Virus record (IMG/VR): IMGVR_UViG_3300050821_014117
Location: 1 to 51,750 of that record
Direction: 5' to 3' (one strand)
Origin: a virus
Length of the DNA stretch: 51,750 bases
Position 1 is the first letter of the stretch. Every line of letters starts with the position of its first letter. A model generated the notes under the pieces. It was given only the letters and a program-made list of their open reading frames with translations. It was not told where the DNA came from and made no database searches. Shown here piece after piece: positions 395-51,093 of this stretch. A program made the translations under genes and the position numbers.

Positions 395-1078
395 TTACTG
401 CACGCCTCTCGCGTACAATCCCACCAGCTCGCACAGCAGAATCAGGCCCGCGCCGCTCGCGCTCAACACCTGCGAGGAAGCGCCGGTCAATTGAGCGAAG
501 AACGACATCTGGTTCGCGATCACCAACTTGACCGCCACGACGTTCATGGCGTCACGGGAAGGCCAGCCGTTGGTGTAGAAGGATTCCGACGTCTTGGTGG
601 TGGCGCCGGCAATGCCCCAGCCGCTCGAGAAGTGGCGGATGTTGGCGCGCTGGTACTCCTTTTTGCCGAGCCAGAATTCAAAGGCCCAGGAGTTCAGCAG
701 GGTCTGGAGATCCGAGCGGAGGATGTCCTCGGAGATGCCGACACGAACCCCGAACACGCTGAACGCTTCGGGGGCGTCCAGTTTGGAGTTCTGGGTCATG
801 TTGGTTTGGGCGAAGGTCTTGCCCGAGCTGGACTCGACGTTGGTGAACAGCGAGGAGTTCGGGGTGTTGATGGTGCCCGCGGCCGCATAGGTGATGGTGT
901 CGTAGATCGGGGTGTCCTGGACGTCGAGCGTGTTGGATACGTAGATCTGGCCCTTGAAGCTGTTGATGATGAATTGCTGCTGGGCCGTGATGGCGGCGGC
1001 GGCGGTCTGGACCGCCACCGCGTTGTTCATGGCGGCCTGGGTGGCGGCCGCTTGCGCTACGGTTTGGCTTTGTGTCAT
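395..1078 (-). CDS. Putative coat (capsid-like) protein, 227 aa
   Basis: Starts at ATG 1078 with an AAGGAG site eight bases upstream. The N-terminus is Ala/Gln-rich and helical; the rest looks beta-rich. It is clearly paralogous to the product of 18143-18814. Both have NM-x-Q followed by LDAPEAFSV near the middle, a WLG-x-K-x-Y-x-R-x-N-I stretch, and the same type of C-terminus (LCELVGLYARGVQ here, LWCHLEGLHATGVQ there). The position inside the structural-type operon, the good ribosome site and the length suggest an abundant virion protein. The capsid role is inference; no hallmark capsid family is recognisable by eye. Confidence 0.6.
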   Translation of the reverse strand: MTQSQTVAQAAATQAAMNNAVAVQTAAAAITAQQQFIINSFKGQIYVSNTLDVQDTPIYDTITYAAAGTINTPNSSLFTNVESSSGKTFAQTNMTQNSKLDAPEAFSVFGVRVGISEDILRSDLQTLLNSWAFEFWLGKKEYQRANIRHFSSGWGIAGATTKTSESFYTNGWPSRDAMNVVAVKLVIANQMSFFAQLTGASSQVLSASGAGLILLCELVGLYARGVQ

Positions 1079-1113: not shown

Positions 1114-1704
1114 TTAGGCTCCGTAGGCGTTGGGGTAGGCGCTGTGGCCCCCCATGTAGGCCTGGGCGCCCCCGGGTCCCATCTGGGCCGCGGATGGCCA
1201 GAACGGTAGCCCGGGCTGGCTGGGCACGAGGTCGCCGGTGCCGCGTCCCGATAGCGAGATGGTGGAGCCAACGGTCGGGACGAAGTTGTTGAGCAGGGTG
1301 GAGCCCGCGTTCATCAGGCCCCCGAACCCCACGGCCGAGCCGAAATCGGGGCTCACGAAGCTGAAGGCCCACCACTCCGCCACCGCCAGGACAAACGCCG
1401 CGATGGTGGCGAAGATATTGTTGCTGGTGATGTTGGAAGGCAGGAGCGGCAGGACCGCCCGGTTGATCGTGACGCCGATAAGGCCGCCCGCGATGTACTG
1501 CCCCATTTTCATGGGGGTGATGTGCTGGCCGAAAAACGCCGGGTTCCTGCGGTTGCGCCGCTTGGGCCGGTGGCTATGACCCTTGTTGGACCGCGGCCCC
1601 ACCACGATGACCCGGGTGCCGGGGTTGCGTTTTCTGTTTCGACTCCGGGCCAGATTGCTTGCCCGGTGAGCCCCTTTTTTCTTGGGGCGCGCTTTAGCTG
1701 GCAT
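1114..1704 (-). CDS. Basic membrane protein with QPGLPFWP motif
   Basis: The preferred start is ATG 1704, preceded by AAAAAAAGGAG at good spacing; an in-frame ATG at 1863 would add 53 basic residues directly after the upstream stop. The first 60 residues are packed with Arg/Lys (NRKRNP, RRNRRNP), suggesting nucleic-acid contact. Two hydrophobic segments follow (IAGGLIGVTI..., FATIAAFVLAVAEWWAF). Near the C-terminus is GDLVPSQPGLPFWP, the same motif that is repeated three times in the product of 6828-7322. I infer a virion protein linking membrane and genome. Unknown family. Confidence 0.7.
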   Translation of the reverse strand: MPAKARPKKKGAHRASNLARSRNRKRNPGTRVIVVGPRSNKGHSHRPKRRNRRNPAFFGQHITPMKMGQYIAGGLIGVTINRAVLPLLPSNITSNNIFATIAAFVLAVAEWWAFSFVSPDFGSAVGFGGLMNAGSTLLNNFVPTVGSTISLSGRGTGDLVPSQPGLPFWPSAAQMGPGGAQAYMGGHSAYPNAYGA

Positions 1705-1870
1705 TGTGTGTCTCCTTTTTTTGGCTGGATTCAAAGACCCGAGCATTAGCGTGTACGCCGGGTTGCTTCTTGGCCGGTGCGCGGCCTTCGGGCGCTTGGC
1801 GCGTGGACGGACACGGATGCCGCGCCGCCCATTCACCACTCGCCGAACTGGTTCCACCTGCATGGTTCGG

Positions 1871-5059: not shown

Positions 5060-5136
5060 TGAGGGGTGGAGCAGCACGGTAGCTCGCCAGCCTCATAAGC
5101 TGGAGGTCGAGGGTTCCAATCCCTCCCCCTCAACCA
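5060..5136 (+). tRNA. tRNA-Met (CAT), initiator-like
   Basis: A complete cloverleaf can be folded by eye. The acceptor is TGAGGGG/CCCCTCA, discriminator A, with CCA encoded. The D stem is GAGC/GCTC, the anticodon stem CCAGC/GCTGG with loop CTCATAA, and the T stem GAGGG/CCCTC. The D arm and extra loop resemble bacterial initiator tRNA, including the A11-T24 pair. Position 1-72 is a weak T-A pair, and the three G-C pairs typical of initiator anticodon stems are missing. The T loop is TTCCAAT, with an unusual C57. It lies on the plus strand, just upstream of and opposite to the glycosyltransferase start. Confidence 0.9.
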
Positions 5137-6827: not shown

Positions 6828-7322
6828 TTATGCGTAAGCGCTCCGGGCCGCGGCGGCGGCCCGTCGGCCCCTCTGATACCGGGAATGCGCTTTGCCGCCC
6901 GAGAAGAAAAACACGTACACGAGGGCCGCGCCACCCGCCAGCATCCAGAACGGGACGGTCCCGATGATGGGCTCCTGCATCGCGGTCATGAAGCTCTGCC
7001 ACGCGGCTGAAAATTGCCCCGACGTCAGATTGGTCATCATGGCGCTCAAGTCGTCCGTCAGGGCCCCCATGCCGCCATGGCCGCAAGTGCCTCCGCAGCC
7101 ACACCCGCAGTCCCCGGAGCCCATGCCGGACCCGCTGGGCCAGAACGGCAGCCCGGGTTGACTGGGAGTCAAATCCCCCATCCCCATGGCGCCGGGCCAG
7201 AACGGCAGCCCGGGTTGACTAGGGGCCAGATCCCCCATCCCCATGGCGCCGGGCCAGAACGGCAGGCCGGGTTGCGCTGGAACCAAATCCCCCACCCCTA
7301 GGTATTGACGCGACATCCTCAT
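6828..7322 (-). CDS. Membrane protein with three 19-residue QPGLPFWP repeats
   Basis: 164 aa from ATG 7322 (MRMSRQYLGVGDLVP), with AAGGAGG upstream. Residues 12-65 are three near-identical units of GDLxPxQPGLPFWPGAMGM, followed by a Gly/Cys-rich patch (DCGCGCGGTCGHGG), an amphipathic region, one membrane helix (VPFWMLAGGAALVYVFFF) and a basic tail. The N-terminus fits the MRI...LGD signature of its neighbours. Its motif recurs once in the product of 1114-1704, suggesting both bind the same partner. Confidence 0.75.
   Translation of the reverse strand: MRMSRQYLGVGDLVPAQPGLPFWPGAMGMGDLAPSQPGLPFWPGAMGMGDLTPSQPGLPFWPSGSGMGSGDCGCGCGGTCGHGGMGALTDDLSAMMTNLTSGQFSAAWQSFMTAMQEPIIGTVPFWMLAGGAALVYVFFFSGGKAHSRYQRGRRAAAAARSAYA
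7141..7311 (-). repeat. Three tandem 57-bp repeats inside a gene
   Basis: Units start at about 7141, 7198 and 7255, each opening with CAGAACGGCAG on the plus strand. The period of 57 bases equals 19 codons, so the repeat keeps frame. The third unit is the most diverged. Confidence 0.9.
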
Positions 7323-7333
7323 AAAAAGCCTCC

Positions 7334-7780
7334 TTACCGCCTCCCCAGCACAATGGGCAACACCAGGATGGTGACGACCCCCGCAATAATCAACGGCATC
7401 CACGACCCGACCGCTTGACCCGCCGCCTGGATCGCCGTAATGGTCGGGCTTTGCTGGACCACAGGAACCGTTGGGCTCACGGTGGTGGGGGCTTGGCTAC
7501 ACCCCAGGGCCGTGGTGTCCCACACGGTCCCCGCGGGACACACGTTGTAACAGGGCCAGCAGGCTTGCCGGCCGAACAGATCACCCGTGACCCCGCCGGT
7601 CCACCAGCAACTCCCCGGGCAGTTCACGTCCGAGAAGGTCCCGGCGTTGGGTTGCGGCTGCGCCACGTCTCCCAGGCCCGCCGCCTGCAGGACCGAATTG
7701 GGCGCGAACTGATACATCATGCTGGTGGGGACAGTATCGCCGATCCCACGGACTCCAATGCGCTGTGCCGCGATCCTCAT
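7334..7780 (-). CDS. Tail-anchored membrane protein of the MRI-LGD group
   Basis: 148 aa from ATG 7780 (MRIAAQRIGVRGIGD), overlapping the stop of the next upstream gene as ATGA. The middle is Cys-rich (CPGSCWW, QACWPCYNVCPAG), then a Thr/Pro linker, and at the end one membrane helix (MPLIIAGVVTILVLPIVL) capped by GRR. No signal peptide is visible. This architecture is shared with the products of 8399-8842, 10621-11445 and 12948-13457. Likely a virion or assembly membrane protein. Confidence 0.7.
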   Translation of the reverse strand: MRIAAQRIGVRGIGDTVPTSMMYQFAPNSVLQAAGLGDVAQPQPNAGTFSDVNCPGSCWWTGGVTGDLFGRQACWPCYNVCPAGTVWDTTALGCSQAPTTVSPTVPVVQQSPTITAIQAAGQAVGSWMPLIIAGVVTILVLPIVLGRR

Positions 7781-7980
7781 TGGGCACCCCCCAGCAGACC
7801 AAGGGGCGATTTCCCCGTGATGGCCTGGTACCCCATCCAGGTCGCGAGTGCCGCGCCGATGACCTGGTGGCCGTTGAAAAACAAATACACCCCTGCGGCG
7901 GTCCCGATCCATTCGGGGAGATTGGGGACTTGCCCCAAGGCCGATAGGGCCTGCGCGGGACTGGTGACCTGGGGGTTCAT
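7777..7980 (-). CDS. Small membrane protein, 67 aa
   Basis: Starts at ATG 7980, overlapping the stop of the J-domain gene. It has two weakly hydrophobic stretches (WIGTAAGVYLFFN, VIGAALATWMGYQAI) and no recognised family. Stop-start overlap on both sides ties it to the structural-type operon. Confidence 0.65.
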   Translation of the reverse strand: MNPQVTSPAQALSALGQVPNLPEWIGTAAGVYLFFNGHQVIGAALATWMGYQAITGKSPLGLLGGAQ

Positions 7981-8402
7981 GCGGCCCTACCCCGGCGGGT
8001 TTGTGCCGCCATCCGGATCAACACCGAAAGCTCCGGGTTCTGGTCCATGAGGTTTCGCAGCACCGACGACCCCATCCGCATCGCCATGGTCTCCAGGATG
8101 TTGGGGGGATAAGGAGCCGGATAGCCTGCAGCTTGCTGGTTCATCCACCCATAGGGATCAACCGGAATACTTTGCTGCGGCGGTTCCTGGGCCGCGCGCT
8201 CTTGCCGGAGCTGAAGGTCGTAGCGGCGTCGGCGTTCCCGGTCCTCCAGGCAATCGTGGGCATTGTTGAGCTGGACGCACTTTTCCGCATCGCCCGCCGG
8301 TCCATCGGGATGATAACGGCGCAGCAGTGTTTTCCACGCCGCCTCAATGACCTCGGGGCTCGCGTGCTCCGCCACTTCCAGGACGTCGTAGTGGGTGGTC
8401 AT
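7977..8402 (-). CDS. J-domain (DnaJ-like) protein
   Basis: 141 aa from ATG 8402, coupled to its upstream neighbour by ATGA. Residues 4-66 are a J domain: YDVLEVAEHASPEVIEAAWKTLLRRYHPDG with the HPD tripeptide at residues 31-33, then a helix III/IV region (CVQLNNAHDCLEDRERRRRYD). There is no Gly/Phe region, zinc finger or substrate-binding domain. The C-terminal half is Pro-rich, then amphipathic helices. J domains recruit and stimulate host Hsp70; here it most likely directs DnaK to virion assembly, given the structural-type neighbours (inference). Confidence 0.88.
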   Translation of the reverse strand: MTTHYDVLEVAEHASPEVIEAAWKTLLRRYHPDGPAGDAEKCVQLNNAHDCLEDRERRRRYDLQLRQERAAQEPPQQSIPVDPYGWMNQQAAGYPAPYPPNILETMAMRMGSSVLRNLMDQNPELSVLIRMAAQTRRGRAA

Positions 8403-8842
8403 CGTCTGCGCCCCCCCATGCTTGAAACCAGCATCACCAGCCCGATGGCGACGACCCCGTAGATCAGGTAAGTCGTGACCGCGGGCGTCACGGCCGATGG
8501 GGCACCCGCGGAACCAGGGGCTCCATAGACGGTACCGGGCACCACCGGGGTCAATGGCAACTGCGGGGTCCCGGTGGTGGGCAGGCTCGAGATAGGCAAT
8601 GGTGCTGGCGCTGCTCCGGGGCCTGAAACAGGCGGGCACACATACGCGCCGGTCGCGTCCGCCATCACGACCAACCCTGAGGGGCAGGTAAAGGGAGTGC
8701 CTGGCACCGGAGCTGGGGCCGGTTGGTTGGGGTTCGCGATGATGGGGTTGCCGGGGGCGCACGGGTCGCTCCAGACCCCGGTGTCGGGATCTTCCATGGG
8801 GCAAGAATCCCCTAGACCTATTGCGCTTAGGTTGATCCTCAT
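8399..8842 (-). CDS. Tail-anchored membrane protein of the MRI-LGD group
   Basis: 147 aa from ATG 8842 (MRINLSAIGLGD). The start codon lies directly after a boundary element (GTCGCCAACCC then ATG). The body is Pro/Gly/Thr-rich and probably extended. A single membrane helix (YLIYGVVAIGLVMLVSSM) ends in GGRRR. Same layout as its neighbours; probable virion or assembly membrane protein. Confidence 0.7.
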   Translation of the reverse strand: MRINLSAIGLGDSCPMEDPDTGVWSDPCAPGNPIIANPNQPAPAPVPGTPFTCPSGLVVMADATGAYVCPPVSGPGAAPAPLPISSLPTTGTPQLPLTPVVPGTVYGAPGSAGAPSAVTPAVTTYLIYGVVAIGLVMLVSSMGGRRR

Positions 8843-8934
8843 GGGTTGGCGACCACGCCTTTGTCGCGCTCGCGACCTTGCTCTGGTCGTTCCCCGCGAA
8901 TCGAACACGCCCCGAATTGTTGAGTCTTTTCCAT
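8839..8934 (-). CDS. Mini-ORF mostly made of boundary-element sequence
   Basis: 31 codons from ATG 8934, one base after the upstream stop region (TAGTGATG), to a TGA that overlaps the next ATG. The C-terminal two thirds (RGERPEQ...GVVANP) is the translated boundary element. It is probably not a functional protein; it may carry ribosomes from one gene to the next. Confidence 0.35.
   Translation of the reverse strand: MEKTQQFGACSIRGERPEQGRERDKGVVANP
8845..8906 (-). repeat. Boundary element 1 (GGGGAACGACC to GTCGCCAAC on minus)
   Basis: The only copy within the 0-14.4 kb block. It has the GTTC...GAAC hairpin at its 5' side and an internal GTCGC/GCGAC hairpin, and ends just before the ATG at 8842. 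Confidence 0.85.
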
Positions 8935-8936
8935 CA

Positions 8937-9092
8937 CTACCGGAGCCTCACGATCAGGACGCCCGCCGCAGCCGCGGCCGCCAGCCACCAGAACCATTGA
9001 ACAGTTGCGCCGCACGGTTGGGGCTGCGGGAGAAAATCCGGGCACCCGCTGGCAAACATTTGCTGCTCAAATCCATAGCTGCCGGGCGGCAT
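8937..9092 (-). CDS. Small membrane protein, 51 aa
   Basis: Reads MPPGSYGFEQQMFASG from ATG 9092, two bases after the upstream stop, with GGAGG twelve bases before it. The C-terminus is a membrane helix (WFWWLAAAAAAGVLIV) and the basic end RLR. The Cys/Pro-rich middle followed by an anchor matches, in miniature, the neighbouring tail-anchored proteins. Confidence 0.65.
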   Translation of the reverse strand: MPPGSYGFEQQMFASGCPDFLPQPQPCGATVQWFWWLAAAAAAGVLIVRLR

Positions 9093-9093
9093 C

Positions 9094-9819
9094 TTACCGG
9101 GTACCTCCATGGATCAGGTAGGCCGGGAGCCCGATGTCGTCCCCCAGGCCCGCGAGTTGCCCCCCGGGTAACCGTCCCCAAATGATCGGGGGGTTCCATC
9201 CGGTCGGCACTGCCTGCGGTACCGGGCCAAACCCATTGAGCCCTGCGGTCGCGATCGCGGCGACAAATTGCGCGGCGGTCATCTGGGGGTTTTGCGTCGG
9301 GTCTGATGGGCGCCCGTTGGGGAAAAACAAACTTTCGAACGTGCCGGACGCAATGGCGGTGTGGCCCGTTTGGGTGTAGTAGTAGCTCCACTGGTCCGCG
9401 TTCAAGGTGGAGCTGGAGCCGAGGCCCGCGGCGCTCAAGAGCTGCTGGGTCAGGGCGCTGGGGTTGCTCGTGGATGGCGGGACCGCTGGGGGCGGCGATG
9501 ACGCCGGCGGCGGATTGAATGTTGGGGGTAACGTAACAATCGGCGATGATGGCGGGGTTGGATTAACTACCGGAACGCCCCCGACGATCAGGCCGCTTGG
9601 ACCACCTTGAACAATTGCTGGATTGTTCGTTGTGGGCGTCGTTGCGACTGCCGGGAGCCCCAGCATCGGGCACAGCGTAGCGTTCCCATAGAGGGCCGAC
9701 CCCACGGTGGAGCATTGGCCCTTGAGCCATTCGTAGAGGAAATACCCTCCCCCCACCACCACCACCAGCGTCACGATCTTGCCGGTCGCGTCCCCAGGAT
9801 TCTTCCGTCGTTTCGCCAT
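9094..9819 (-). CDS. Membrane-anchored protein with Pro-rich stalk (paralogue A)
   Basis: 241 aa from ATG 9819 (MAKRRKNPGDATGK). An N-terminal basic patch precedes one membrane helix (IVTLVVVVGGGYFLYEWLK). A Pro/Ser/Thr stalk of about 80 residues and a C-terminal domain with DQWSYYYTQTGH...MTAAQFVAAI follow. The adjacent product of 9822-10334 has the same order (helix ending in YWWLK, Pro/Ala stalk, DDWSYWWQNN... domain), so they are probably diverged duplicates. The C-terminus carries another GLGDDIGLP motif. Likely projects from a membrane; function unknown. Confidence 0.7.
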   Translation of the reverse strand: MAKRRKNPGDATGKIVTLVVVVGGGYFLYEWLKGQCSTVGSALYGNATLCPMLGLPAVATTPTTNNPAIVQGGPSGLIVGGVPVVNPTPPSSPIVTLPPTFNPPPASSPPPAVPPSTSNPSALTQQLLSAAGLGSSSTLNADQWSYYYTQTGHTAIASGTFESLFFPNGRPSDPTQNPQMTAAQFVAAIATAGLNGFGPVPQAVPTGWNPPIIWGRLPGGQLAGLGDDIGLPAYLIHGGTR

Positions 9820-9821
9820 TG

Positions 9822-10334
9822 TCAGTTCACCCACGCGTACTGCTGGGCCAGCGGAGCCGCCAGCCCGCTTAACCCGGTTTGTTGCTGCTGCCACAAAAGC
9901 GTGACCCATTGCAGGGCCGTGATGTTGACCGATCGATCTCCCCCGCCCTGCTGGATCATCGCGTCGATCATGTTGGGGGAGATGCTGCCGGCTTGCCCGT
10001 AGCCCGCTGGTGCCCCCTGGAACGTGGGGTTGTTCTGCCACCAGTAGCTCCAGTCGTCAAAATTCTGCAGGGCCGCCGCGGCACTAGATTGCATCGCGAT
10101 CGCGGCCTGGGCATAAGGACCGGGGAGCCCCGGGGCAGCCGCGGGCGGCGGCGCCGTGGCAGCCGGAGCCGTGACCGTTGCGGGCGGCTGCACCGTGGGC
10201 TGGGTCCCGGGCGCGATCGCGCCTCCGAACCACTGGGCCCAATAGCCCGATTGCTTGAGCCACCAGTAGATCCCGAGGGCCGCGCCCGCCAACACCAGGA
10301 CCTTGATGATCGTTTTGGTGGTGTCGTCTTTCAT
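9822..10334 (-). CDS. Membrane-anchored protein with Pro-rich stalk (paralogue B)
   Basis: 170 aa from ATG 10334 (MKDDTTKTIIKVLVLAG), overlapping the upstream stop. It has a membrane helix at residues 8-26, a Pro/Ala/Thr stalk, then an aromatic C-terminal domain (DDWSYWWQNNPTFQG, ITALQWVTLLWQQQ). Compare paralogue A directly downstream. No signal cleavage site is evident, so it probably stays anchored. Confidence 0.7.
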   Translation of the reverse strand: MKDDTTKTIIKVLVLAGAALGIYWWLKQSGYWAQWFGGAIAPGTQPTVQPPATVTAPAATAPPPAAAPGLPGPYAQAAIAMQSSAAAALQNFDDWSYWWQNNPTFQGAPAGYGQAGSISPNMIDAMIQQGGGDRSVNITALQWVTLLWQQQQTGLSGLAAPLAQQYAWVN

Positions 10335-10624
10335 CGCTTGCCTCTCAGGAGTTGGACCAGACCGTCGAGCGCCAGGACTGCGCCCGCGAGAAACACCACC
10401 GCCATCACCGGGTTCTGCTGGATCCATTGATTCAGGTTCTGCCAGGTCCCGCAGGTGACGGGTCCCAACCCGAGGGTCGCGGAGGTGACGTCGGGGATCG
10501 GGGGCACGATGTTGTCGGGCGTCAGGATCGGGCCCCCCGGATCGGGTAACGGCGAAGCGATCGGTGGCGTCAAGTCATCGGGAGCCAAGAGCGCCGGAGG
10601 CCCGCCACCTATAAATTGGTTCAT
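10331..10624 (-). CDS. Tail-anchored membrane protein, 97 aa
   Basis: Starts at ATG 10624 with GAGG before it, coupled to the upstream gene by ATGA. A Pro/Asp/Leu-rich N-terminus is followed by CGTWQNLNQWIQQNP and a membrane helix (MAVVFLAGAVLALDGLVQLL) ending in RGKR. Belongs to the series of small tail-anchored proteins in this operon. Confidence 0.65.
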   Translation of the reverse strand: MNQFIGGGPPALLAPDDLTPPIASPLPDPGGPILTPDNIVPPIPDVTSATLGLGPVTCGTWQNLNQWIQQNPVMAVVFLAGAVLALDGLVQLLRGKR

Positions 10625-11445
10625 TTGCCACCTCGCCAGACCAGGAGCCCCACGATCGCGATGGCGGCGATCCAGCCCCAGGTGGGGATCGAGGATAAAG
10701 AGAAACCGGTGGGGGTGGCGGCTGAACCGGCGGGCCCGATGGTCGGGGCCCCCGGGGTCACCAAATTGGACGCGATGGGGTTGCCACCGCTGGCCAACAC
10801 GGCCGCTTGGGTTTGGCCCTGCTGTTGGGCTCCGCTTCCTTGGACGGCCGCGGCGGTTGCGGGGGTGTTGCCCGAGGCGGCCAATTGCGCCTGCCCTTGG
10901 GGCGTCATGTAGAACGGGGCACCGCCCGGCTGGTTCGTCAGGGCGCTGCTCAACCAATTGGGGTCCATGTTGGTGACGCCGGCTGGGCCGACACAGTTGG
11001 TGGTCCCCACTTTCCCCGCCCCAATCTGGACGTCGTGCATGTTCTGCCAGTTGGTCCCCTGGGGCCCGCCGCCGAATTGCCAGAGCTGCCCGCAGGTATC
11101 CCAGACGATGTCGCCCTGCGCGTAATTGGTGTTGGGGTCGTAGGGGCCCGGAGCGTGATGGGTTGGGCTGGTGCCGGCCCCTTGAGATCCGGTGCCGCAG
11201 CATGGGTCTGAGGTCGCGGGATCATTCGTGCAGATCATGTTGGCGATCTCGCATGGATTGCACGGCGGTAGATTGGGGCAGTCCGCCGCGGTGGTTCTGG
11301 TTCCGCTGTCCGGGTTTATCATCCCCACCATGCAGCACGGCCCTACCGTCATGTCGCCCAAGCCCCGAAGGCCTCCGACGGGATAGGCGATGTGGCCCCG
11401 CCCGATCATGGGGGACCGGTGAATCAGGTTGCTCGCGATCCTCAT
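10621..11445 (-). CDS. Tail-anchored membrane protein of the MRI-LGD group, 274 aa
   Basis: Starts at ATG 11445 (MRIASNLIHRSPMIG), overlapping the upstream stop. It carries GGLRGLGD at residues 24-31, then a Cys-rich part (CPNLPPCNPCEIANMIC, DPCCG), a Gly/Gln/Ala-rich part, and a C-terminal membrane helix (WGWIAAIAIVGLLVW) with tail RGGK. It is the longest of the group. Function unknown; structural or assembly role inferred from context. Confidence 0.7.
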   Translation of the reverse strand: MRIASNLIHRSPMIGRGHIAYPVGGLRGLGDMTVGPCCMVGMINPDSGTRTTAADCPNLPPCNPCEIANMICTNDPATSDPCCGTGSQGAGTSPTHHAPGPYDPNTNYAQGDIVWDTCGQLWQFGGGPQGTNWQNMHDVQIGAGKVGTTNCVGPAGVTNMDPNWLSSALTNQPGGAPFYMTPQGQAQLAASGNTPATAAAVQGSGAQQQGQTQAAVLASGGNPIASNLVTPGAPTIGPAGSAATPTGFSLSSIPTWGWIAAIAIVGLLVWRGGK

Positions 11446-12161
11446 AAGAGCAGCACCCCCGCGGCGATGGCGGCAATGATCAGGAGGGGCACCAAGCTGG
11501 TGGAGCCCGTCGGGCTTGCGATCGAGAGGGCCCCGCCCCCCGGCAGAGAAACCGGATCCGGCACAACATACGGGTCGTTCGCGATGGGGTCGCGGTATCC
11601 CACGAACCAGTTCCAACAAGTGCCCCCGGAAGAAACTTGCGGCCCCGGTGGAATCCATTGCCCGGCTTGCCATTGCCCCGGCGTTGACGTGCGCCAGGTG
11701 CAGGCCCCGCGTTGCCGATCCGTGATGCACCGCTGACCAGCCGCTTGATAGCTGGGGTTGCTGCACGCGGCAGTGAGGGCGGCCCACGCGGTATCGAAGT
11801 TATTGAGGTGGGCGGCCTGGAAGCTCGCGTACCGGGGTGACACCGATAAATAGTTCTGCAGATTCTGGAGCAGAATCGGTTCCGTCTGGTTCGCCAAGTT
11901 GCTGGTGATGGTGCAGGTCTGGCCGCACCCCTTGAACACGTTGTAGAGGGCGATCGCAACCGCTGAAGCCGCCGCAACTGCCGCGCCGATGGGACCAGCG
12001 AGACTACCGCCCGACGCCAACGCCGTCAGGATCGAAAGGCTCGCGGTGGTGGCGGCGATGCCGGCCGAAACGATCTGGGCGGCCGTCTGGCTCGTGAGGT
12101 TTGCCCCCATGCCGCGGAATCCCCGCAGCATGCCCAGCTCCCGGATCGCTACCGTACCCAT
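11442..12161 (-). CDS. Conserved membrane-active protein with FKGCGQTC motif
   Basis: 239 aa from ATG 12161. Residues 20-75 are a long small-residue helix region rich in Ala/Gly/Ser (glycine-zipper-like), followed by NVFKGCGQTCTITSNLANQ, then NLQNYLSVSPRYASFQAAHLNNFDTAWAAL and CITDRQRGACTW, and a C-terminal hydrophobic end (LVPLLIIAAIAAGVLLL). I recall similar Cys motifs from uncharacterised phage-like sequences of soil bacteria, without known function. A membrane-remodelling or DNA-entry role is a guess. Confidence 0.6.
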   Translation of the reverse strand: MGTVAIRELGMLRGFRGMGANLTSQTAAQIVSAGIAATTASLSILTALASGGSLAGPIGAAVAAASAVAIALYNVFKGCGQTCTITSNLANQTEPILLQNLQNYLSVSPRYASFQAAHLNNFDTAWAALTAACSNPSYQAAGQRCITDRQRGACTWRTSTPGQWQAGQWIPPGPQVSSGGTCWNWFVGYRDPIANDPYVVPDPVSLPGGGALSIASPTGSTSLVPLLIIAAIAAGVLLL

Positions 12162-12421
12162 GAGCCCCTCTTTCCGATGTCGATCCGGCCTTTGCCGACC
12201 TGAATCCGCGAACTGCCTGCGTTGGCCTGGGCCATCATGGTCCGGCGGAACGATTCCGCGTCGGCCCGGGTTTCAAACCAGGAGCTAATGGTCTGGCGGA
12301 CACCGCCCAGCAGAAACTTTCCTGGCTTGGCCTGGATCACTGCGCGGTACCGTTTCCCCGACGGGTTCCGGCGGCTCGATACCTTGACGATCAGGCGCGG
12401 GAGTTTGCGCTGCTGTTTCAT
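12149..12421 (-). CDS. Basic protein, 90 aa (MKQxRKxPRL family)
   Basis: Starts at ATG 12421, coupled to the upstream gene by ATGA. It begins MKQQRKLPRLIVKVSS, nearly the same as MKQARKIPRLVVKVSN of the next protein, so the two starts are duplicates. The rest contains a KRYRAVIQAKPGKFLLGG strand-like segment and RADAESFRRTMMAQ. Strongly basic; possible nucleic-acid binding. Confidence 0.65.
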   Translation of the reverse strand: MKQQRKLPRLIVKVSSRRNPSGKRYRAVIQAKPGKFLLGGVRQTISSWFETRADAESFRRTMMAQANAGSSRIQVGKGRIDIGKRGSWVR

Positions 12422-12633
12422 CCGCGCCCTCCGGTGCCGCGTGCTGGACCCAGCAGCCGATCCATTCGGGCGTAATAGTGCTCGTTGGTTTCACCAGGCA
12501 GTTTACGTTTCGAGATTTTGCCGGGCCTTTGCTTGAGCCGATCCATGCGCGCGTAGTACTGCTGGTTGGTCTCGCGCGGTTTTGCGTTCGAGACCTTCAC
12601 AACAAGGCGCGGGATTTTGCGGGCCTGTTTCAC
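12418..12633 (-). CDS. Basic protein with duplicated YYARMDRL motif, 71 aa
   Basis: Starts at ATG 12633. It shares its N-terminus with the downstream protein and has an internal duplication: ETNQQYYARMDRL and ETNEHYYARMDRL about 26 residues apart, each after a KxRxxxGK basic stretch. Unknown function; probably a DNA- or RNA-contacting protein of the structural-type operon. Confidence 0.65.
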   Translation of the reverse strand: MKQARKIPRLVVKVSNAKPRETNQQYYARMDRLKQRPGKISKRKLPGETNEHYYARMDRLLGPARGTGGRG

Positions 12634-12637
12634 TTTC

Positions 12638-12940
12638 TTACCGGCGGCTCCGATTCTTTTTCTTCATGTACTTCTTGCGCCAGGCCGCCGACCCAAATTT
12701 CAACTTGCGCGGCTTGTTCTTGGCCCGCGATACTCGCTTACCAGAAGCCTCTAGCCGTCTTCGCTTGTGCGTGGCCCGTTGGCGTGCGCTGTTTTTCTTG
12801 CGCTTTGGCTTGTTGCTGCGCTTCCGCTTTGGAGTCCCGGGCACCAGGGCCGTGAGGGCGACGTGTAGGCCGCGCTCTCCGGCTCGATAGATTTTTCTCA
12901 ACTCGCTCAGGGTTGTGGAGACGCGCCGATTCACCGCCAT
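12638..12940 (-). CDS. Very basic protein (histone/protamine-like), 100 aa
   Basis: Starts at ATG 12940. About a third of the residues are Lys or Arg, mostly from residue 36 on (KRKRSNKPKRKKNSARQR, HKRRRLEASGKRVSRAK, KKYMKKKNRSRR). The N-terminus is amphipathic (STTLSELRKIYRAGERG). The charge and place next to virion-type genes suggest neutralising the packaged genome. No homologue is named. Confidence 0.65.
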   Translation of the reverse strand: MAVNRRVSTTLSELRKIYRAGERGLHVALTALVPGTPKRKRSNKPKRKKNSARQRATHKRRRLEASGKRVSRAKNKPRKLKFGSAAWRKKYMKKKNRSRR

Positions 12941-12947
12941 GGTGTCC

Positions 12948-13457
12948 TCATTTCTTTATCACCATCACGACCAGCACCAACGCGACAAACCCAAACATCA
13001 GCGGCAGCATCGAGCCGGTCAACGATGCGGTCGCGGTAGTGGAGCCGAGGGATGCCGACATGTAGGTGCCGGTCGCGGGGTTATACCGCAGGTAAGGGGA
13101 TTGGCCGTTGGCGGCCAGCAACGCCTGGGAGGCCGCGGTGCCGCCAGCTTGAATGATGGCGGTCAATTGCGCGGGGGTCAGGCCAGTTGATGGGACCGTG
13201 ATGCTGCCGCCGGAGCCCGGACCAGTTCCACCGAATGTATCGGGGACCGCGCCACCCGTTGCCGGGGTTGCGGCCAACGGCTCGCATCCCGAGCAGTCCA
13301 GGTTCGTGATGGCGCCGGTGTCGTCGTAGGTGGGGACACAACAGTCGCCCAATCCACTGAGGCCCGATAGGTCCAATTCGACGTCGACCATCTGGTTGGG
13401 GTTCCCACCGTAACCAGGCGGGTAGAGCTGGAGGGATTGCGGGACCGTCAGGATCAT
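12948..13457 (-). CDS. Tail-anchored membrane protein with GLGDCC motif
   Basis: 169 aa from ATG 13457, coupled upstream by ATGA. The N-terminal beta-like part carries LSGLSGLGDCCVPTY and CSGCEP, then a Gly/Thr-rich linker and an AQLTAIIQAGGTAASQALL helix. A final membrane helix (LPLMFGFVALVLVVMVI) ends in KK. Same design as the MRI-LGD proteins but with the LGD motif further inside. Confidence 0.7.
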   Translation of the reverse strand: MILTVPQSLQLYPPGYGGNPNQMVDVELDLSGLSGLGDCCVPTYDDTGAITNLDCSGCEPLAATPATGGAVPDTFGGTGPGSGGSITVPSTGLTPAQLTAIIQAGGTAASQALLAANGQSPYLRYNPATGTYMSASLGSTTATASLTGSMLPLMFGFVALVLVVMVIKK

Positions 13458-13747
13458 GCCGCTGCCTTTACTTTTTTGGGCGGCCGTTTCAACACACTGA
13501 CGCGGCGACGGCGCCGTCCCCAAAATGGCTCGTAGGCTTTTTCGGCCGCATCCATTCTGTTCACAGCGCGGATTAGATCGGTATTTACGATTGTGATAAT
13601 CTCCACGACTGAGTCAGAACTGAATCTCTCGCGAGCCTCATCACAGAACGCGTGACCTACCCCCTGCAGCACTACATTCAATCGAACCCGGGCCTTCTCT
13701 CGTTCCTGCTGGGCCTTCAGACGTTTGGGATCGTCGCGCCGCGTCAT
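13454..13747 (-). CDS. Basic helical protein, 97 aa
   Basis: Starts at ATG 13747 (MTRRDDPKRLKAQQEREKAR), coupled to the transglutaminase-like gene. It looks mainly helical with a hydrophobic middle (VVEIITIVNTDLIRAVNRM) and ends in a basic tail (RRRRRVSVLKRPPKKVKA). No family recognised. Confidence 0.6.
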   Translation of the reverse strand: MTRRDDPKRLKAQQEREKARVRLNVVLQGVGHAFCDEARERFSSDSVVEIITIVNTDLIRAVNRMDAAEKAYEPFWGRRRRRVSVLKRPPKKVKAAA

Positions 13748-14415
13748 GCCGCCCTCCGGAGCCAATAAGCCGCGGCCCCCAGGCCCAACAAGAGCCACGC
13801 GACCGTCCAATCTTCCGAGTCCTCGAGGGGCCACTCGCGCCGGCGCCCCAGGTTCTTACATTCCCAGCCGGGATACGGCCCGTGTGAGAAGTCGAGCGGG
13901 ATGCGCCGACCTTCTTGATAGGCCGCCAGGTAAACGTGGCTGTAGCGGTGGGGTTCCCGTGGGTCCGCCGATACCGTCACCAGCTTGGTCTGGACCCCCA
14001 GGGCCGTCAAGAGTGCGGCGGCGTAGAGTTCGAACCCGTCGCAGTCCTCGAACCCTTGGCCCATCTGCCGGATCAACAGTTCCTGGTCTACCGGCCGGAT
14101 AAACACCTCAACGACATCCTGGAGCCGTGGATCATCGACCTGCAGGTCCCGCGCGATGTCGGCGTCTTGCCGGAACCGCAGCAACGGCTTCACGGTGCGC
14201 CACACCCCTGTGATCGGGTCGCCCTGCCCCAACTGCAACGCCATGCCCGCCCGCTGCAAGATCAAGGGGGAGCAGGCGTCCTCGAGGATCAAGCGGTTCA
14301 TCCTCCGGATCGACACCGCCACTTGGCCGTCGGGGTCCTCGGGCAACCAGTCGAACTGGTACCGGATCGTTTGGCCGAACCCTGGATGGTACGCGGAGGT
14401 CTGCACGGATTCCAA
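13744..14415 (-). CDS. Transglutaminase-like cysteine protease-fold membrane protein
   Basis: 223 aa from TTG 14415. The core EDCDGFELYAAALLTALGVQTKLVTV...YSHVYLAAYQ...RIPLDFSHG is a transglutaminase-like domain with the triad Cys125, His160 and Asp175. A C-terminal membrane helix (WTVAWLLLGLGAAAYWL) ends in RRAA. First gene of the leftward block. The -10 box of the inferred leftward promoter ends about six bases before the TTG, so the mRNA may be leaderless. Possible roles are protein crosslinking or proteolysis in virion maturation (inference). Confidence 0.8.
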   Translation of the reverse strand: MESVQTSAYHPGFGQTIRYQFDWLPEDPDGQVAVSIRRMNRLILEDACSPLILQRAGMALQLGQGDPITGVWRTVKPLLRFRQDADIARDLQVDDPRLQDVVEVFIRPVDQELLIRQMGQGFEDCDGFELYAAALLTALGVQTKLVTVSADPREPHRYSHVYLAAYQEGRRIPLDFSHGPYPGWECKNLGRRREWPLEDSEDWTVAWLLLGLGAAAYWLRRAA

Positions 14416-17834: not shown

Positions 17835-18146
17835 TTGCCTCTAACGGATCAACAGATTGACGAGATCCTAGACCAGCAGCGCCCCCACATGCGGGAATGC
17901 TACCGCCAGATGTTTGAGCGGGGGCAGCCCTGGTGCTCCATGAAGGTAGGGCACATGAAAACGGTCAATGGCTCCACCTGGGACTTCATGATGTACTGGA
18001 CCCTCGAGCCCGTCGCGGACCTGATCGCCGGAGTCCTGAATGGTTACGTGAAACTCAACGCAACCCTCCAGCGGGGCACCCAGCCCCAGGGAACCGTTCC
18101 GCCTCCACCGCCCGCGGACCAGAAGGGCAACGCGTTCGGGCTATGA
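17835..18146 (+). CDS. Hypothetical protein, 103 aa
   Basis: TTG 17835 is chosen because AAAAGGAG sits six bases before it. The protein starts MPLTDQQIDEILDQQRPHM, has a helical N-terminal half and an aromatic middle (GSTWDFMMYWTLEPVADLIAG), and ends in a Pro-rich tail. Coupled to the coat-like paralogue by ATGA. An in-frame GTG at 17736 would add 33 residues made largely of element sequence. Confidence 0.65.
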   Translation: MPLTDQQIDEILDQQRPHMRECYRQMFERGQPWCSMKVGHMKTVNGSTWDFMMYWTLEPVADLIAGVLNGYVKLNATLQRGTQPQGTVPPPPPADQKGNAFGL

Positions 18147-18814
18147 CGCTCTCCGACCCCACTGCACGGCAGCGAGAATTGCGCGATGAATTTCCTGGCG
18201 TTTACGCCGGGTACAATCTCAATATCCAGACCGGTGTCCTGTGGGATTCGGTCCAGCTCTGCGCCAATGAAGCCGCGGACCGGTTGGAATTGTTCCGCGT
18301 CCCCATCGGTGCCCCGGACCAACATGGGCGGCTCAAATCAATCCGCGACACCAACATGGCGCAACACGGCCGGCTCGATGCCCCCGAGGCGTTCAGTGTC
18401 CGGCGGCTGGTGTGGACGTTTTCGAGCTTCGCGGCCGACCAGGATGTCTACGGGTTCGCGGAGGCCGTGGTCTGGACCTTGTGGTTAGGGCACAAATATG
18501 TGGCCCGCAATAACATCATCTCGCTCCAGACCGCCCCCAATATACTGGCACCGATCCGGACCTGCGAGTGGTGCCGGTCGGTATATGCGGGCGACATTTC
18601 GTGCCCGGGGTGTGGGGCCCGCCAATTCTCGATTCAGGGCCTGCCCGATGGTCCGCCGGCTGGTAGAAGATTTTTCCTCGAGTTCCTCATGCCGGTCCGC
18701 ATCTTGAACCAGATCACCTTCTGGGTCGATCTTGCAGCCCCAGGGTTCCGGCCCGCTGCGGCCCTCGAGCTATGGTGCCATCTGGAAGGCCTGCACGCCA
18801 CCGGAGTCCAGTGA
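18143..18814 (+). CDS. Coat-like paralogue with inserted zinc ribbon
   Basis: 223 aa from ATG 18143. It shares with the 395-1078 product the block DTNMAQHGRLDAPEAFSV, a WLG-x-K-x-x-x-R-N-N-I stretch and the C-terminus HLEGLHATGVQ. In place of the variable middle of the other copy it carries CEWCRSVYAGDISCPGCGA, a four-Cys zinc ribbon. It lies far from the other copy, in the rightward block. It may be a minor virion protein or a regulator that copies the coat fold (inference). Confidence 0.7.
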   Translation: MTLSDPTARQRELRDEFPGVYAGYNLNIQTGVLWDSVQLCANEAADRLELFRVPIGAPDQHGRLKSIRDTNMAQHGRLDAPEAFSVRRLVWTFSSFAADQDVYGFAEAVVWTLWLGHKYVARNNIISLQTAPNILAPIRTCEWCRSVYAGDISCPGCGARQFSIQGLPDGPPAGRRFFLEFLMPVRILNQITFWVDLAAPGFRPAAALELWCHLEGLHATGVQ

Positions 18815-30520: not shown

Positions 30521-30811
30521 ATGGAAACCGTGACAGTACAGCGCGGCAAATGGGTCACCCGAAACAACCGGGTGGCCGTCATCGATGGCTACGTCATGAT
30601 GGACGATTCGCCCCAACCGGGCGTGGCCCCAACGGTCCGAAAGGTCTGGCAAGGGGACCTCTACAAGGCCGATGGCGTCACCCCGGATTCGCGCCACTCC
30701 TGGGAACAGGATGGCCGGTTCAAAACCCCCCTGGGGGTCGCGAGCAGCTATGACCTCGTGAGTTTGATCGAGGTCCATGCGGAACCGGTGCCTGCGGCGC
30801 CGGCCGCTTGA
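30521..30811 (+). CDS. Hypothetical protein, 96 aa
   Basis: ATG 30521. Beta-rich small protein (VTVQRGKWVTRNNRVAVIDGYVMM; VRKVWQGDLYKADG). Coupled to the lysozyme-like gene by TTGA. No family recognised. Confidence 0.65.
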   Translation: METVTVQRGKWVTRNNRVAVIDGYVMMDDSPQPGVAPTVRKVWQGDLYKADGVTPDSRHSWEQDGRFKTPLGVASSYDLVSLIEVHAEPVPAAPAA

Positions 30812-31386
30812 TCGCCGTGCTGGTCGCGGGCCTGGGGATGGGGGCGGCGTGTACTCCGGTCCTGACCCCGGACCAAATCTATCAGGTGGCCCGGGCGGCC
30901 GGGTTCCCCGCGCCGGTCGATGGCGGGCCCCTGGGGAACGCCCAAACGATGACCGCGATCGCGCTACGGGAATCGGGAGGCTGTGCGGGGGCCCATAACC
31001 CAGGGCCCGGTGAGGATTCCTGGGGCCTGTGGCAAATCAACGTCCAGGGGAACCCCGGGATCTTGGCGCAATTGGGCCTGACGAGCCCGAGCCAGTTGAC
31101 CGACCCCGCGACCAATGCGGCGGCCGCGTTCCTGATGTGGGGTGGGAACGACGCGAACCTCAATGTCGCGTGGTACCTGAACCAGCCCAGCTATTATCAG
31201 GCCTACCTGGCCTATTTGCCCGCGGCACAACAGGCGGCCCAGGACGTCGAGGGGGTTACGGCGCCGGATACGTCGTCGGGGCCCGTGTTGAGCGCGGGGC
31301 TGAGTTTTGCGGGGCTTTCAGCGGGGCAGCTTGCCTTGGGGGCCGGGATTGCGGTGGCGCTGGGGCTGGTGCTGTTTAAGCTCTAA
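30808..31386 (+). CDS. Transglycosylase/lysozyme-like (SLT-fold) membrane protein
   Basis: 192 aa from TTG 30808. IALRESGGCAGAHNPGPGEDSWGLWQINVQGNPG is the soluble-lytic-transglycosylase-like core with the catalytic Glu at residue 55 and the GLWQIN motif. An N-terminal hydrophobic leader (IAVLVAGLGMGAAC, possibly a lipoprotein-type Cys) and a C-terminal membrane helix (LALGAGIAVALGLVLF) suggest a membrane-linked enzyme that cuts glycan strands at infection or lysis. Confidence 0.88.
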   Translation: MIAVLVAGLGMGAACTPVLTPDQIYQVARAAGFPAPVDGGPLGNAQTMTAIALRESGGCAGAHNPGPGEDSWGLWQINVQGNPGILAQLGLTSPSQLTDPATNAAAAFLMWGGNDANLNVAWYLNQPSYYQAYLAYLPAAQQAAQDVEGVTAPDTSSGPVLSAGLSFAGLSAGQLALGAGIAVALGLVLFKL

Positions 31387-47706: not shown

Positions 47707-48600
47707 TTACCTCCGGGGCCAGTACCAGCCGAACACCGCCGCCGTAATCATGCCGGTGCCGACAGGGCTACCGACCGGGATGTTGTAGTAGATGTAGACG
47801 TTCTGGCCCGAAATCATACGGATGTTATTGATGCCGGGGACCGACACCTGGTTCAAGCTGCCAAACGTCGTGTTGACGTTCCCGAGATCCGGGGCGAAGC
47901 GGTTCCCCACTTTCAAGCGCCAGAAGATGTTGCCGCTATAGTCCTGGAACCCCAGGCCCGTGAAATTGGGGACGAACCGGGTGATGACGCCGTCCCAGCC
48001 GTCCGGCACCTGGAACTGGCCGAGCAGCACGTCGTTGCCGGTGAACGGCCCCACGGGGGTGGCGACCCCAAAGCCCTGCTCTAGTTTTTCCGCATTGGAC
48101 GGCATCACGATCCAGGGGGGCTGGTTATAGATGGGGGCTCCGAGGCTGGGGATCCGGCAGCAGCTCTTGAGGCCGCCGTGGTTTTTCACGTAGGTCCACC
48201 AGGCCGATTCCCTGACGAGCCGGTGGTCCCAGGGGCCGGGCTGCCAATAGATCGGAGGGCGCCGCATCAGCGGGTTGGTGCGCTGCAACGGCAGCGGCAG
48301 GACCGAATCGGGCAGGAACGATTGGGTCCACTGGCCCGCGGGGGTCAAGCCGATGGGGGGCGGCACCACAACCATGGGGGCCCCGGGGGGCCAGGCGGTT
48401 GGGGGTGGGGCCGCGACCGGACCGCCGCCGTAATAGACTGGGTTGCCCGCTTGGTCAAATCCAATGACGCCCGCGCCTGCGCCGGGAACCCCGGAGCCGA
48501 TCGGTGGGGCGGTGCCGGGGATCGGGCCACCACCACTCTGGACCTCGGGGGTCCATTCGGTTGGGAGCGGCATCACGACAAGGTCGCCTAGGTTTCGCAT
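47707..48600 (-). CDS. Virion protein with Pro-rich N-terminus and beta domain, 297 aa
   Basis: ATG 48600 (MRNLGDLVVMPLPTEW) after AAGGAG supplied by element 27. Residues 15-110 are Pro/Gly-rich; the C-terminal 130 residues (FQVPDGWDGVITRFVPNFTGLGFQDYSGNIFWRLKV...NNIRMISGQNVYIYYNIP) look like a jelly-roll seen in phage attachment proteins. Likely a surface or vertex protein. Confidence 0.7.
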   Translation of the reverse strand: MRNLGDLVVMPLPTEWTPEVQSGGGPIPGTAPPIGSGVPGAGAGVIGFDQAGNPVYYGGGPVAAPPPTAWPPGAPMVVVPPPIGLTPAGQWTQSFLPDSVLPLPLQRTNPLMRRPPIYWQPGPWDHRLVRESAWWTYVKNHGGLKSCCRIPSLGAPIYNQPPWIVMPSNAEKLEQGFGVATPVGPFTGNDVLLGQFQVPDGWDGVITRFVPNFTGLGFQDYSGNIFWRLKVGNRFAPDLGNVNTTFGSLNQVSVPGINNIRMISGQNVYIYYNIPVGSPVGTGMITAAVFGWYWPRR

Positions 48601-50025: not shown

Positions 50026-51093
50026 TCAGGAAACTTCGTTTACTCCAAATTGCGCGGCGTTCAAGCCCGCCGGTAGCCACGCCACCGTGGTGTGGGGGTC
50101 GGCGTTGTAGACCTCGAGGTAAATGTCCAGGTAGCTGGTCGTCAAGGCGGGCTGGGTAGTGCCCGCGTAATTGGTGCCTCCCGACCGGACCTCCGGTGCA
50201 ATGGTCCGGGCCGCAATGTCGTCCTTGCGGGCGTAGAACGCCACCTGCACCCCCAGGATCGCGGCGGGGCTCGACGCCAGGGGGGCGAACGTGTAGAGGT
50301 CGATCTGCCCGGGGGTCGCGCTCGACACGTAGGTGGTGTCGCCGTCGGGCGGTTCTTCGTTCACCAGCAAATAGTGCGGCCCCGCCACGCTGGGGGTCCA
50401 TTGCGAGAGCGCGCCATCACCAGTGGGGGTGGCGTCGACCGCCCGGCTGGGCCCGAGGAGCGTGTCGGCCACGTAGCCGTCGCAGAAATAATACTGCGCG
50501 CCCGCTTGCGGGCAGCACAGGTAGAATTCGTACACGTTGCCCGAGAGCCCGCCGGCCCCGCGGGTGTCAAAGGTGGCGGTGGCTTCGAGGACCCCATCCA
50601 GGTACACGTTAACGGTCGAGCTGGCGGAAATCCCCAGGATTTCGAACTCGATGTAGTAGTACGAATTGTTCTGCAGGATGTGGGTCCCGGTGGCCTGCAG
50701 GACCCCTTGGTTCAGAAGGTTGAAAGGCCATTGCAAAATGGTGAGGCGCCCCAGGAGATCGACCCCGCAGGCCGCGTACACGTTTTGATGGCCCCCGGGG
50801 AGCCCAGAACCGGAATCGCCAAACGCCATCAGCATCCCGGGGGTGGGCCAGTTGCTCGACTTGACTGCAAACCCCATGCGGATGGGGGCGGCAAACGGCC
50901 CGGCCGGGATGTTGAAATTCTGGGTATAGCCCCCGCCGTTGACCCCCAGGGCGTTGCCCGAGAAACGACCCTGCCCGGCCCCAATGGAGGTGCCGCCGCT
51001 GCTTTGTGGTTGGTTGTAGCGAGAGAGCAAGACCGAGACGCTGGTGCCGCACCAGGTGAACCCCTCGATGTTGTAAATGTTGGGTAGCGCCAT
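50026..51093 (-). CDS. LamG/concanavalin-like virion protein, 355 aa
   Basis: ATG 51093. FTWCGTSVSVLLSRYNQPQ...GRFSGNALGV then SYYYIEFEILGISASSTVNVYLDGVLEATATFDTRG is a concanavalin/LamG-like sandwich; GYVADTLLGPSRAVDATPTGDGALSQWTPSVAGPHYLLVNEEPPDGDTTYVSS is a common phage structural motif. Probable receptor-binding or decoration protein. Confidence 0.8.
   Translation of the reverse strand: MALPNIYNIEGFTWCGTSVSVLLSRYNQPQSSGGTSIGAGQGRFSGNALGVNGGGYTQNFNIPAGPFAAPIRMGFAVKSSNWPTPGMLMAFGDSGSGLPGGHQNVYAACGVDLLGRLTILQWPFNLLNQGVLQATGTHILQNNSYYYIEFEILGISASSTVNVYLDGVLEATATFDTRGAGGLSGNVYEFYLCCPQAGAQYYFCDGYVADTLLGPSRAVDATPTGDGALSQWTPSVAGPHYLLVNEEPPDGDTTYVSSATPGQIDLYTFAPLASSPAAILGVQVAFYARKDDIAARTIAPEVRSGGTNYAGTTQPALTTSYLDIYLEVYNADPHTTVAWLPAGLNAAQFGVNEVS

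Follow-up and report, generated by a model that had tools for sequence, protein, structure and literature searches.

Transglutaminase (TGase)-like cysteine proteinases of the LapG type are bacterial TGase-fold proteases that cut specific sites in bacterial surface proteins, and to our knowledge protease-driven maturation has not been described for tailless membrane-containing phages. In adenoviruses a single viral cysteine protease (adenain/AVP) acts on many structural substrates, including pVI, pVII and pVIII, at sites near the protein ends. These sites take the forms (M/I/L)XGG|X and (M/I/L)XGX|G, and the precursor ends are thought to dock to the capsid and then be cut, as reviewed for pVI (PMC4246237). 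The phage SSIP-1 contains a membrane, and its architecture is of the PRD1-adenovirus type, with two types of major capsid protein (PMC6356626). Here we describe a short motif with a G-hydrophobic-G core in membrane proteins of a 51,750-base virus record (IMGVR_UViG_3300050821_014117; hereafter the window), most of them encoded in a minus-strand gene run from 14.4 to 6.8 kb. We infer, at slightly better than even confidence and from sequence comparison, that the motif is a processing site at which virion membrane proteins are cut by a TGase-like protein whose gene heads the same cluster.

Scanning viral contigs with the candidate major capsid protein and the TGase-like protein of the window yielded ~20 related contigs, among which TGase-like identities fall to ~33%. 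Genes of these relatives were called using a simple script, with possible errors in some starts; TM (transmembrane) helices were assigned by hydropathy window, and the contigs are fragments. The motif was scored as G-[LVMIF]-G-[DQA] anywhere among the N-terminal 45 residues, and counts were compared with composition-preserving shuffles, which control composition and not phylogeny, homologous proteins in related genomes not being independent. Among all 996 predicted proteins the motif was present in 67 of the 185 with a C-terminal TM helix (C-anchored), where shuffles gave a mean of 4.9 and a maximum of 12, and in 18 of the 811 others. Taking as the cluster, in 18 related viral contigs, those genes that lie no more than 9.5 kb downstream of the one for the TGase-like protein, we found it in 54/103 C-anchored proteins (shuffle mean 3.4, maximum 10), with no enrichment at their C-terminal end (6/103 versus 4.2 in shuffles). 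Cluster proteins with an N-terminal TM helix (N-anchored, n = 20) showed the reverse, with the motif near the C-terminus in 5/20 versus 1.0 expected under the strict definition and 15/20 versus 7.3 under a loose one, and no significant excess at the N-terminus. This C-terminal excess is confined to the cluster, since N-anchored proteins of whole genomes showed no enrichment (6/43). Because the two classes mirror each other, the motif marks the membrane-distal end of the protein, the N-anchored half of this statement being the weaker as it concerns few proteins.

An earlier note on this DNA had described an N-terminal tag, MRI...LGD, in proteins that mostly have a single C-terminal TM helix. 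All the proteins it named were found on the minus strand (6828-7322, 7334-7780, 8399-8842, 9094-9819, 10621-11445, 12948-13457 and 47707-48600), and five have the expected helix, but the 9094-9819 protein has an N-terminal TM helix with GLGD near its C-terminus and the 47707-48600 protein has none. The note thus identified a genuine common tag with a shared core, but misjudged its position as strictly N-terminal, and the core is G-hydrophobic-G followed by D, Q or A according to protein and lineage. Four carriers had been overlooked (11442-12161, 30808-31386, 1114-1863 and, in variant form, 13744-14415). The relevant features of the window are as follows.

395-1078, minus strand: candidate major capsid protein, the most conserved protein of the group
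1114-1863, minus strand: NP-rich TM protein adjoining the capsid candidate, with GTGDLVPSQPGLPFWPS, and near its C-terminus GRGTGDLVPSQPGLPFWPS, the same as in the 6828-7322 repeats
6828-7322, minus strand: C-anchored protein with MRMSRQYLGVGD, TM helix at residues 119-137 and a basic tail
7334-7780, minus strand: C-anchored protein with MRIAAQRIGVRGIGD / MRIAAQRIGVRGIGDTVP, a second GLGD, TM helix at residues 128-146 and C-terminal GRR
7977-8402, minus strand: DnaJ-domain protein (PF00226, E 9e-14) within the membrane-protein cluster
8399-8842, minus strand: C-anchored protein with MRINLSAIGLGD, a TM helix and C-terminal GGRRR
9094-9819, minus strand: N-anchored 'peg' protein with GLGDD, the motif AGLGDDIGLPAYLIHGGTR lying at the C-terminus, its membrane-distal end
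9822-10334, minus strand: second N-anchored 'peg' protein, with the C-terminal variant GLSGLAAPLAQQYAWVN
10621-11445, minus strand: C-anchored protein MRIASN...GGLRGLGD, TM helix at residues 251-269 and C-terminal RGGK
11442-12161, minus strand: C-anchored protein with LRGFRGMGA, of a 17-member family across relatives
12948-13457, minus strand: C-anchored protein ...SGLSGLGDCC; in distant relatives, homologues of its body follow the TGase-like domain within one fused protein
13744-14415, minus strand: TGase-like protein with a C-terminal TM helix, EDCDGF/SHVY/LDFSHG and the variant motif AYHPGFGQ
30808-31386, plus strand: C-anchored lytic transglycosylase (SLT_3/SLT), starting MIAVLVAGLGMGA, with GLGMGA
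47707-48600, minus strand: soluble protein MRNLGDLVVMPLP, starting MRNLGD, without a TM helix

The genes between 14.4 and 6.8 kb are tightly packed and often overlapping, and encode small proteins with mostly one TM helix each. The 6828-7322 protein contains three tandem copies of G-x-G-D-L-x-P-x-Q-P-G-L-P-F-W-P (in a longer form GxGDLxPxQPGLPFWPG), relatives of the soluble 47707-48600 protein begin MRGFGDLVPLN, MSRGLADIVPLN or MPRGLADITPLN, and in many members of the 11442-12161 family the motif stands immediately N-terminal of the conserved body. Scans of the first cluster proteins against Pfam and PHROGs gave no convincing match, and neither the capsid candidate nor the TGase-like protein convincingly matched annotated phages.

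The tag is carried by unrelated bodies, as the earlier note had proposed. With the motif masked, bodies of C-anchored proteins fell into 93 BLAST clusters, 39 of which contain tagged members, and the tagged enzymes, all C-anchored, include SLT-type transglycosylases (window and G005; PF18896, PF01464) and an M23 peptidase (G006; PF01551). Full-length homology, which that note had named as the alternative, was not found among the tagged proteins and is rejected as the cause of the motif by the separate body clusters and the SLT and M23 folds, while the motif itself is kept in distant relatives. Residues 2-5 of non-homologous tagged proteins are more alike within a genome than between genomes (permutation p 0.0025), with no significant resemblance in untagged controls, and the tag therefore evolves in concert within a lineage. 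The MRI start is real, but restricted to the window lineage, start types being MR[IVM] there, MY[VTI] in L043/L044 and M[SL][LM] in others. Around the core the consensus is L-R-G-[L/M]-G-[D/Q/A], with L two before the first G and R directly before it; R or K precedes the first G in 28/61 proteins (background 4%) and the fourth position (n = 71) is D in 30, Q in 27 and A in 14. A lineage-specific choice among these three, considered as a sign of co-evolution, was not significant (p 0.08). Every synonymous kind of codon is in use at the motif, and therefore the constraint acts on the protein; a DNA- or RNA-level signal is ruled out by this free variation.

The strongest pointer to processing comes from fused proteins. 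In L043-L049 the TGase-like open reading frame (ORF) is 367-423 residues long and runs on into a C-anchored domain, the two being split in the window group. Six of these seven relatives carry a motif at the junction (RGMGQ, SGLGQ, RGLGQ, RGLGQ, RGMGD and RGVGD) and the seventh, L047, has only SGLSGC, while gp34 of SSIP-1 has the layout TGase-like domain, RARGMGEP, domain with a C-terminal TM helix. The motif thus lies at the junction in 7/8 fusions versus 0.24 expected (0/5000 shuffles). The fused C-anchored domain of L043 is homologous to a separate C-anchored protein of L039 (40/58 identical residues, E 9e-21), itself homologous to the GLGDCC protein of the window (12948-13457), and similar body segments are visible in further fused and unfused sequences. 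The TGase-like parts of fused and unfused proteins are also homologous (E 1e-28), and in the window group the motif sits before the unfused C-anchored body. The motif therefore heads the same C-anchored module behind either a short leader or a whole enzyme, and so resembles a processing site. Leaders before the motif span 1-37 residues in called genes, and among 102 homologous pairs leader length is identical in just 5 and motif-to-body spacing in 31, which weakly favours cleavage.

In the cluster no protease candidate other than the TGase-like protein was found; it is so classed from its motif, from Pfam and from fold matches that are weak, with a poor model and incomplete contigs. It is encoded in 19/19 contigs examined, including eight of at least 41 kb first found through the capsid candidate. 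EDCDGF...SH...LDxSHG is conserved in the 19 aligned members, one having T-H and not S-H before the His, and Cys-His-Asp is invariant in all 19; the predicted triad places Cys at a helix start and His and Asp on following strands, in agreement with the secondary structure of the model. One member (G003) scores 23.2 bits against PF01841 (Transglut_core; cut-off 23) and another reaches E 0.044, while the window protein has no match to this family. Most structural neighbours of the model in the PDB (Foldseek, VIA-align; weak scores) belong to the transglutaminases, the arylamine N-acetyltransferases or other papain-like folds, the best being a putative protease at Z 5.7, and the family has no match among PDB sequences. 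We regard 13744-14415 as a candidate maturation protease, although it may instead be a cross-linking enzyme or inactive.

SSIP-1 resembles the window group in that RARGMG-EP links a homologous TGase-like domain with a C-anchored one in its structural protein gp34, and in that C-anchored gp36, gp52 and gp53 carry GMGD, GLGL and GMGS in their N-terminal regions; it differs in host and in having fewer tagged proteins. Among the 18 SSIP-1 proteins searched, gp34 was the only match to the hidden Markov model (HMM) of the TGase family (E 6e-14), and a structure search returned I1ZBG7, a 304-residue viral protein that, being equal in length, is presumably gp34. The capsid-candidate HMM matched none of the same 18 proteins at E<=10 in what was a sequence-profile comparison only, and the accessible SSIP-1 papers describe no processing system. 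PRD1, PM2 and the Thermus phage P23-77 are tailless phages whose membrane lies inside the particle, and they have numerous small TM proteins. Neither PRD1 nor PM2 has a TGase-like gene or N-terminal tags, PRD1 having one G-x-G match near the C-terminus of P7, and P23-77 has two terminal G-x-G matches among 19 TM proteins with no TGase-like gene found. P23-77 ORF 18 (L055:9407-9757) is C-anchored with GLGS near its N-terminus, probably by chance.

A HerA-like ATPase is encoded in 4/19 contigs; in 18 contigs Phage_portal had no match and Terminase_6N none above its cut-off. These results, like the many TM proteins, bear only indirectly on an icosahedral, tailless particle enclosing a membrane; taken with the relation to SSIP-1, they make a tailless particle that contains a membrane likely. 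The model of the capsid candidate is poor (predicted local distance difference test, pLDDT, 39) and does not support a fold assignment, and no sequence relative was found for it in the PDB. A search within the window's own genome found a distant paralogue of this protein in the other genome half (18143-18814, plus strand; E 2e-8), and second copies are also present in G003 (L015:9838-10530) and G006.

On present evidence the system would work like adenovirus maturation and is not classed as a member of the adenain family (peptidase C5). Adenain has an Ulp1-like fold, whereas the window enzyme, by its Cys-His-Asp order, is probably of the TGase type, and the candidate substrates of the window differ in being mostly single-TM proteins that favour R ahead of the first G and D/Q/A following the second. 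The exact adenain consensus holds in part, with L/I/M at position -2 in 22/57 (background 14%), and this likeness of sites counts in favour of processing, as does the presence of the tag on lytic enzymes with unrelated folds. Proteinases of the LapG type differ in not being virion components and in their site, and no sequence match to them was found in this analysis.

In the mechanism we propose, the membrane-anchored, putatively TGase-fold cysteine enzyme would cut beside the G-hydrophobic-G core during assembly or maturation of the virus particle, so that C-anchored proteins would lose a short leader of up to ~40 residues and N-anchored proteins a short tail, and in distant relatives the enzyme would free itself from its fused C-anchored domain. 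The cleavage, this enzyme's role in it, the exact bond, the timing and the virion location of the proteins are all deduced, the proteins annotated as structural being only gp34, gp37 and gp53 of SSIP-1. Several observations weigh against this proposal. No cleavage product has been observed, and some leaders, as in MRGLGD and MSLVGMGQ, reach the first G after just 1-4 residues and would be odd substrates. Repeat proteins contain 2-4 copies of the motif with FVPxxFPLPxNPI conserved after it, an arrangement that suggests multivalent binding more than cleavage. Conservation also seems to extend to the C-terminal tails that follow the motif in N-anchored proteins, and the leader of the GLGDCC protein is partly conserved itself. 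Furthermore, motif-to-body spacing is often inconstant (median difference 5.5 residues), the G-x-G tag is present in only 3/9 C-anchored proteins of SSIP-1 (p about 0.016), and the AlphaFold model of the TGase-like protein is of low confidence (pLDDT 57), with most members missing the Pfam model.

The chief rival, which we consider unlikely yet serious, is an uncut docking tag, in which the membrane-distal motif binds one capsid component and recruits every membrane protein that has it, each reaching across to the inner face of the shell. It would account for the membrane-distal position whichever terminus has the TM helix, for the tandem repeats of motif and follow-on sequence (GLGDFVPxxFPLPxNPI type) in the 6828-7322 family and relatives, for the motif at the very start of the soluble 47707-48600 family and for the very short leaders, and the likeness of first residues among unrelated proteins of one genome suggests a common partner. 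Against it, fused proteins retain the motif mid-protein at the junction, and what stays invariant is a tiny G-x-G core whose flanks vary, which recalls a set of protease subsites more than an interface. Of the roles the earlier note had offered (sorting, processing or assembly), processing is thus favoured through the junction motifs, with assembly as the rival, and the two can be combined, as an uncut distal end may first dock to the capsid and then be cut.

Cross-linking or transpeptidation, in which the enzyme joins tagged proteins through Q (or D/A) after G-x-G and so stakes the membrane to the shell, would suit the TGase fold and the 27/71 proteins with Q at the fourth position, but the D (30) and A (14) found there cannot be glutamine donors and the junction position suggests cutting, and we judge it improbable. 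We give an equally poor chance to a membrane-insertion or translocation signal aiding correct topology of C-anchored proteins, which would fit the strong association with single-TM proteins and the basic residues that lie beyond the helix, as N-anchored proteins have the motif C-terminally, where no insertion step is near, and it is also found in a soluble family. Least credible of all is an artefact of descent or low complexity (diverged paralogues, or chance motifs in Gly-rich N-termini), since, for all the Gly/Pro/Thr-rich bodies and some paralogous clusters, shuffles gave 3.4 against 54 observed and so reject chance from Gly-rich sequence, SLT and M23 bodies are tagged, the body clusters number 39 and codon forms vary freely.

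Other features of the window were also noted. The DnaJ-domain protein (7977-8402, minus strand) occurs in relatives too and is perhaps a virus-encoded chaperone adaptor for assembly. A tRNA-Met (CAT) gene (5060-5136, plus strand) borders the structural cluster and runs antisense to the genes there. Between ~16,000 and 42,000 (plus strand) many short ORFs share the end strings SSGERPEQ...VAKP and GNDPSKPK, and two upstream ORFs start MWGRSPGGFGM; these are dispersed intergenic repeats overlapping gene ends. The 50026-51093 protein (minus strand) is related to PHROG 2448, to Brevundimonas phage proteins and, at ~28% identity, to a putative tail fibre of the tailed Sphingomonas phage Lucius, and is apparently a receptor-binding-like module shared between virus types. 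Candidatus Sulfotelmatobacter was considered as host and set aside, as a single short contig in one metagenome-assembled genome is too weak for assignment.

Literature searches returned no description of the motif or of such processing in phages, which is not proof of absence. We put at about even the chance that these sequences represent an undescribed maturation system, in which a membrane-anchored TGase-fold virion protease would trim many membrane proteins at a shared G-hydrophobic-G tag, following a logic convergent with that of adenoviruses. The phages that have it would form a broad, unclassified group extending to SSIP-1, with particles that contain a membrane and are probably tailless. 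If true, this reading would provide a specific enzyme, a short consensus and, in each genome, several substrates. The tag would help to recognise virion membrane proteins of these phages, the genes for which are otherwise mostly without a match in Pfam or PHROGs. The comparison also connects a set of viral contigs from the environment with SSIP-1, a phage in culture.

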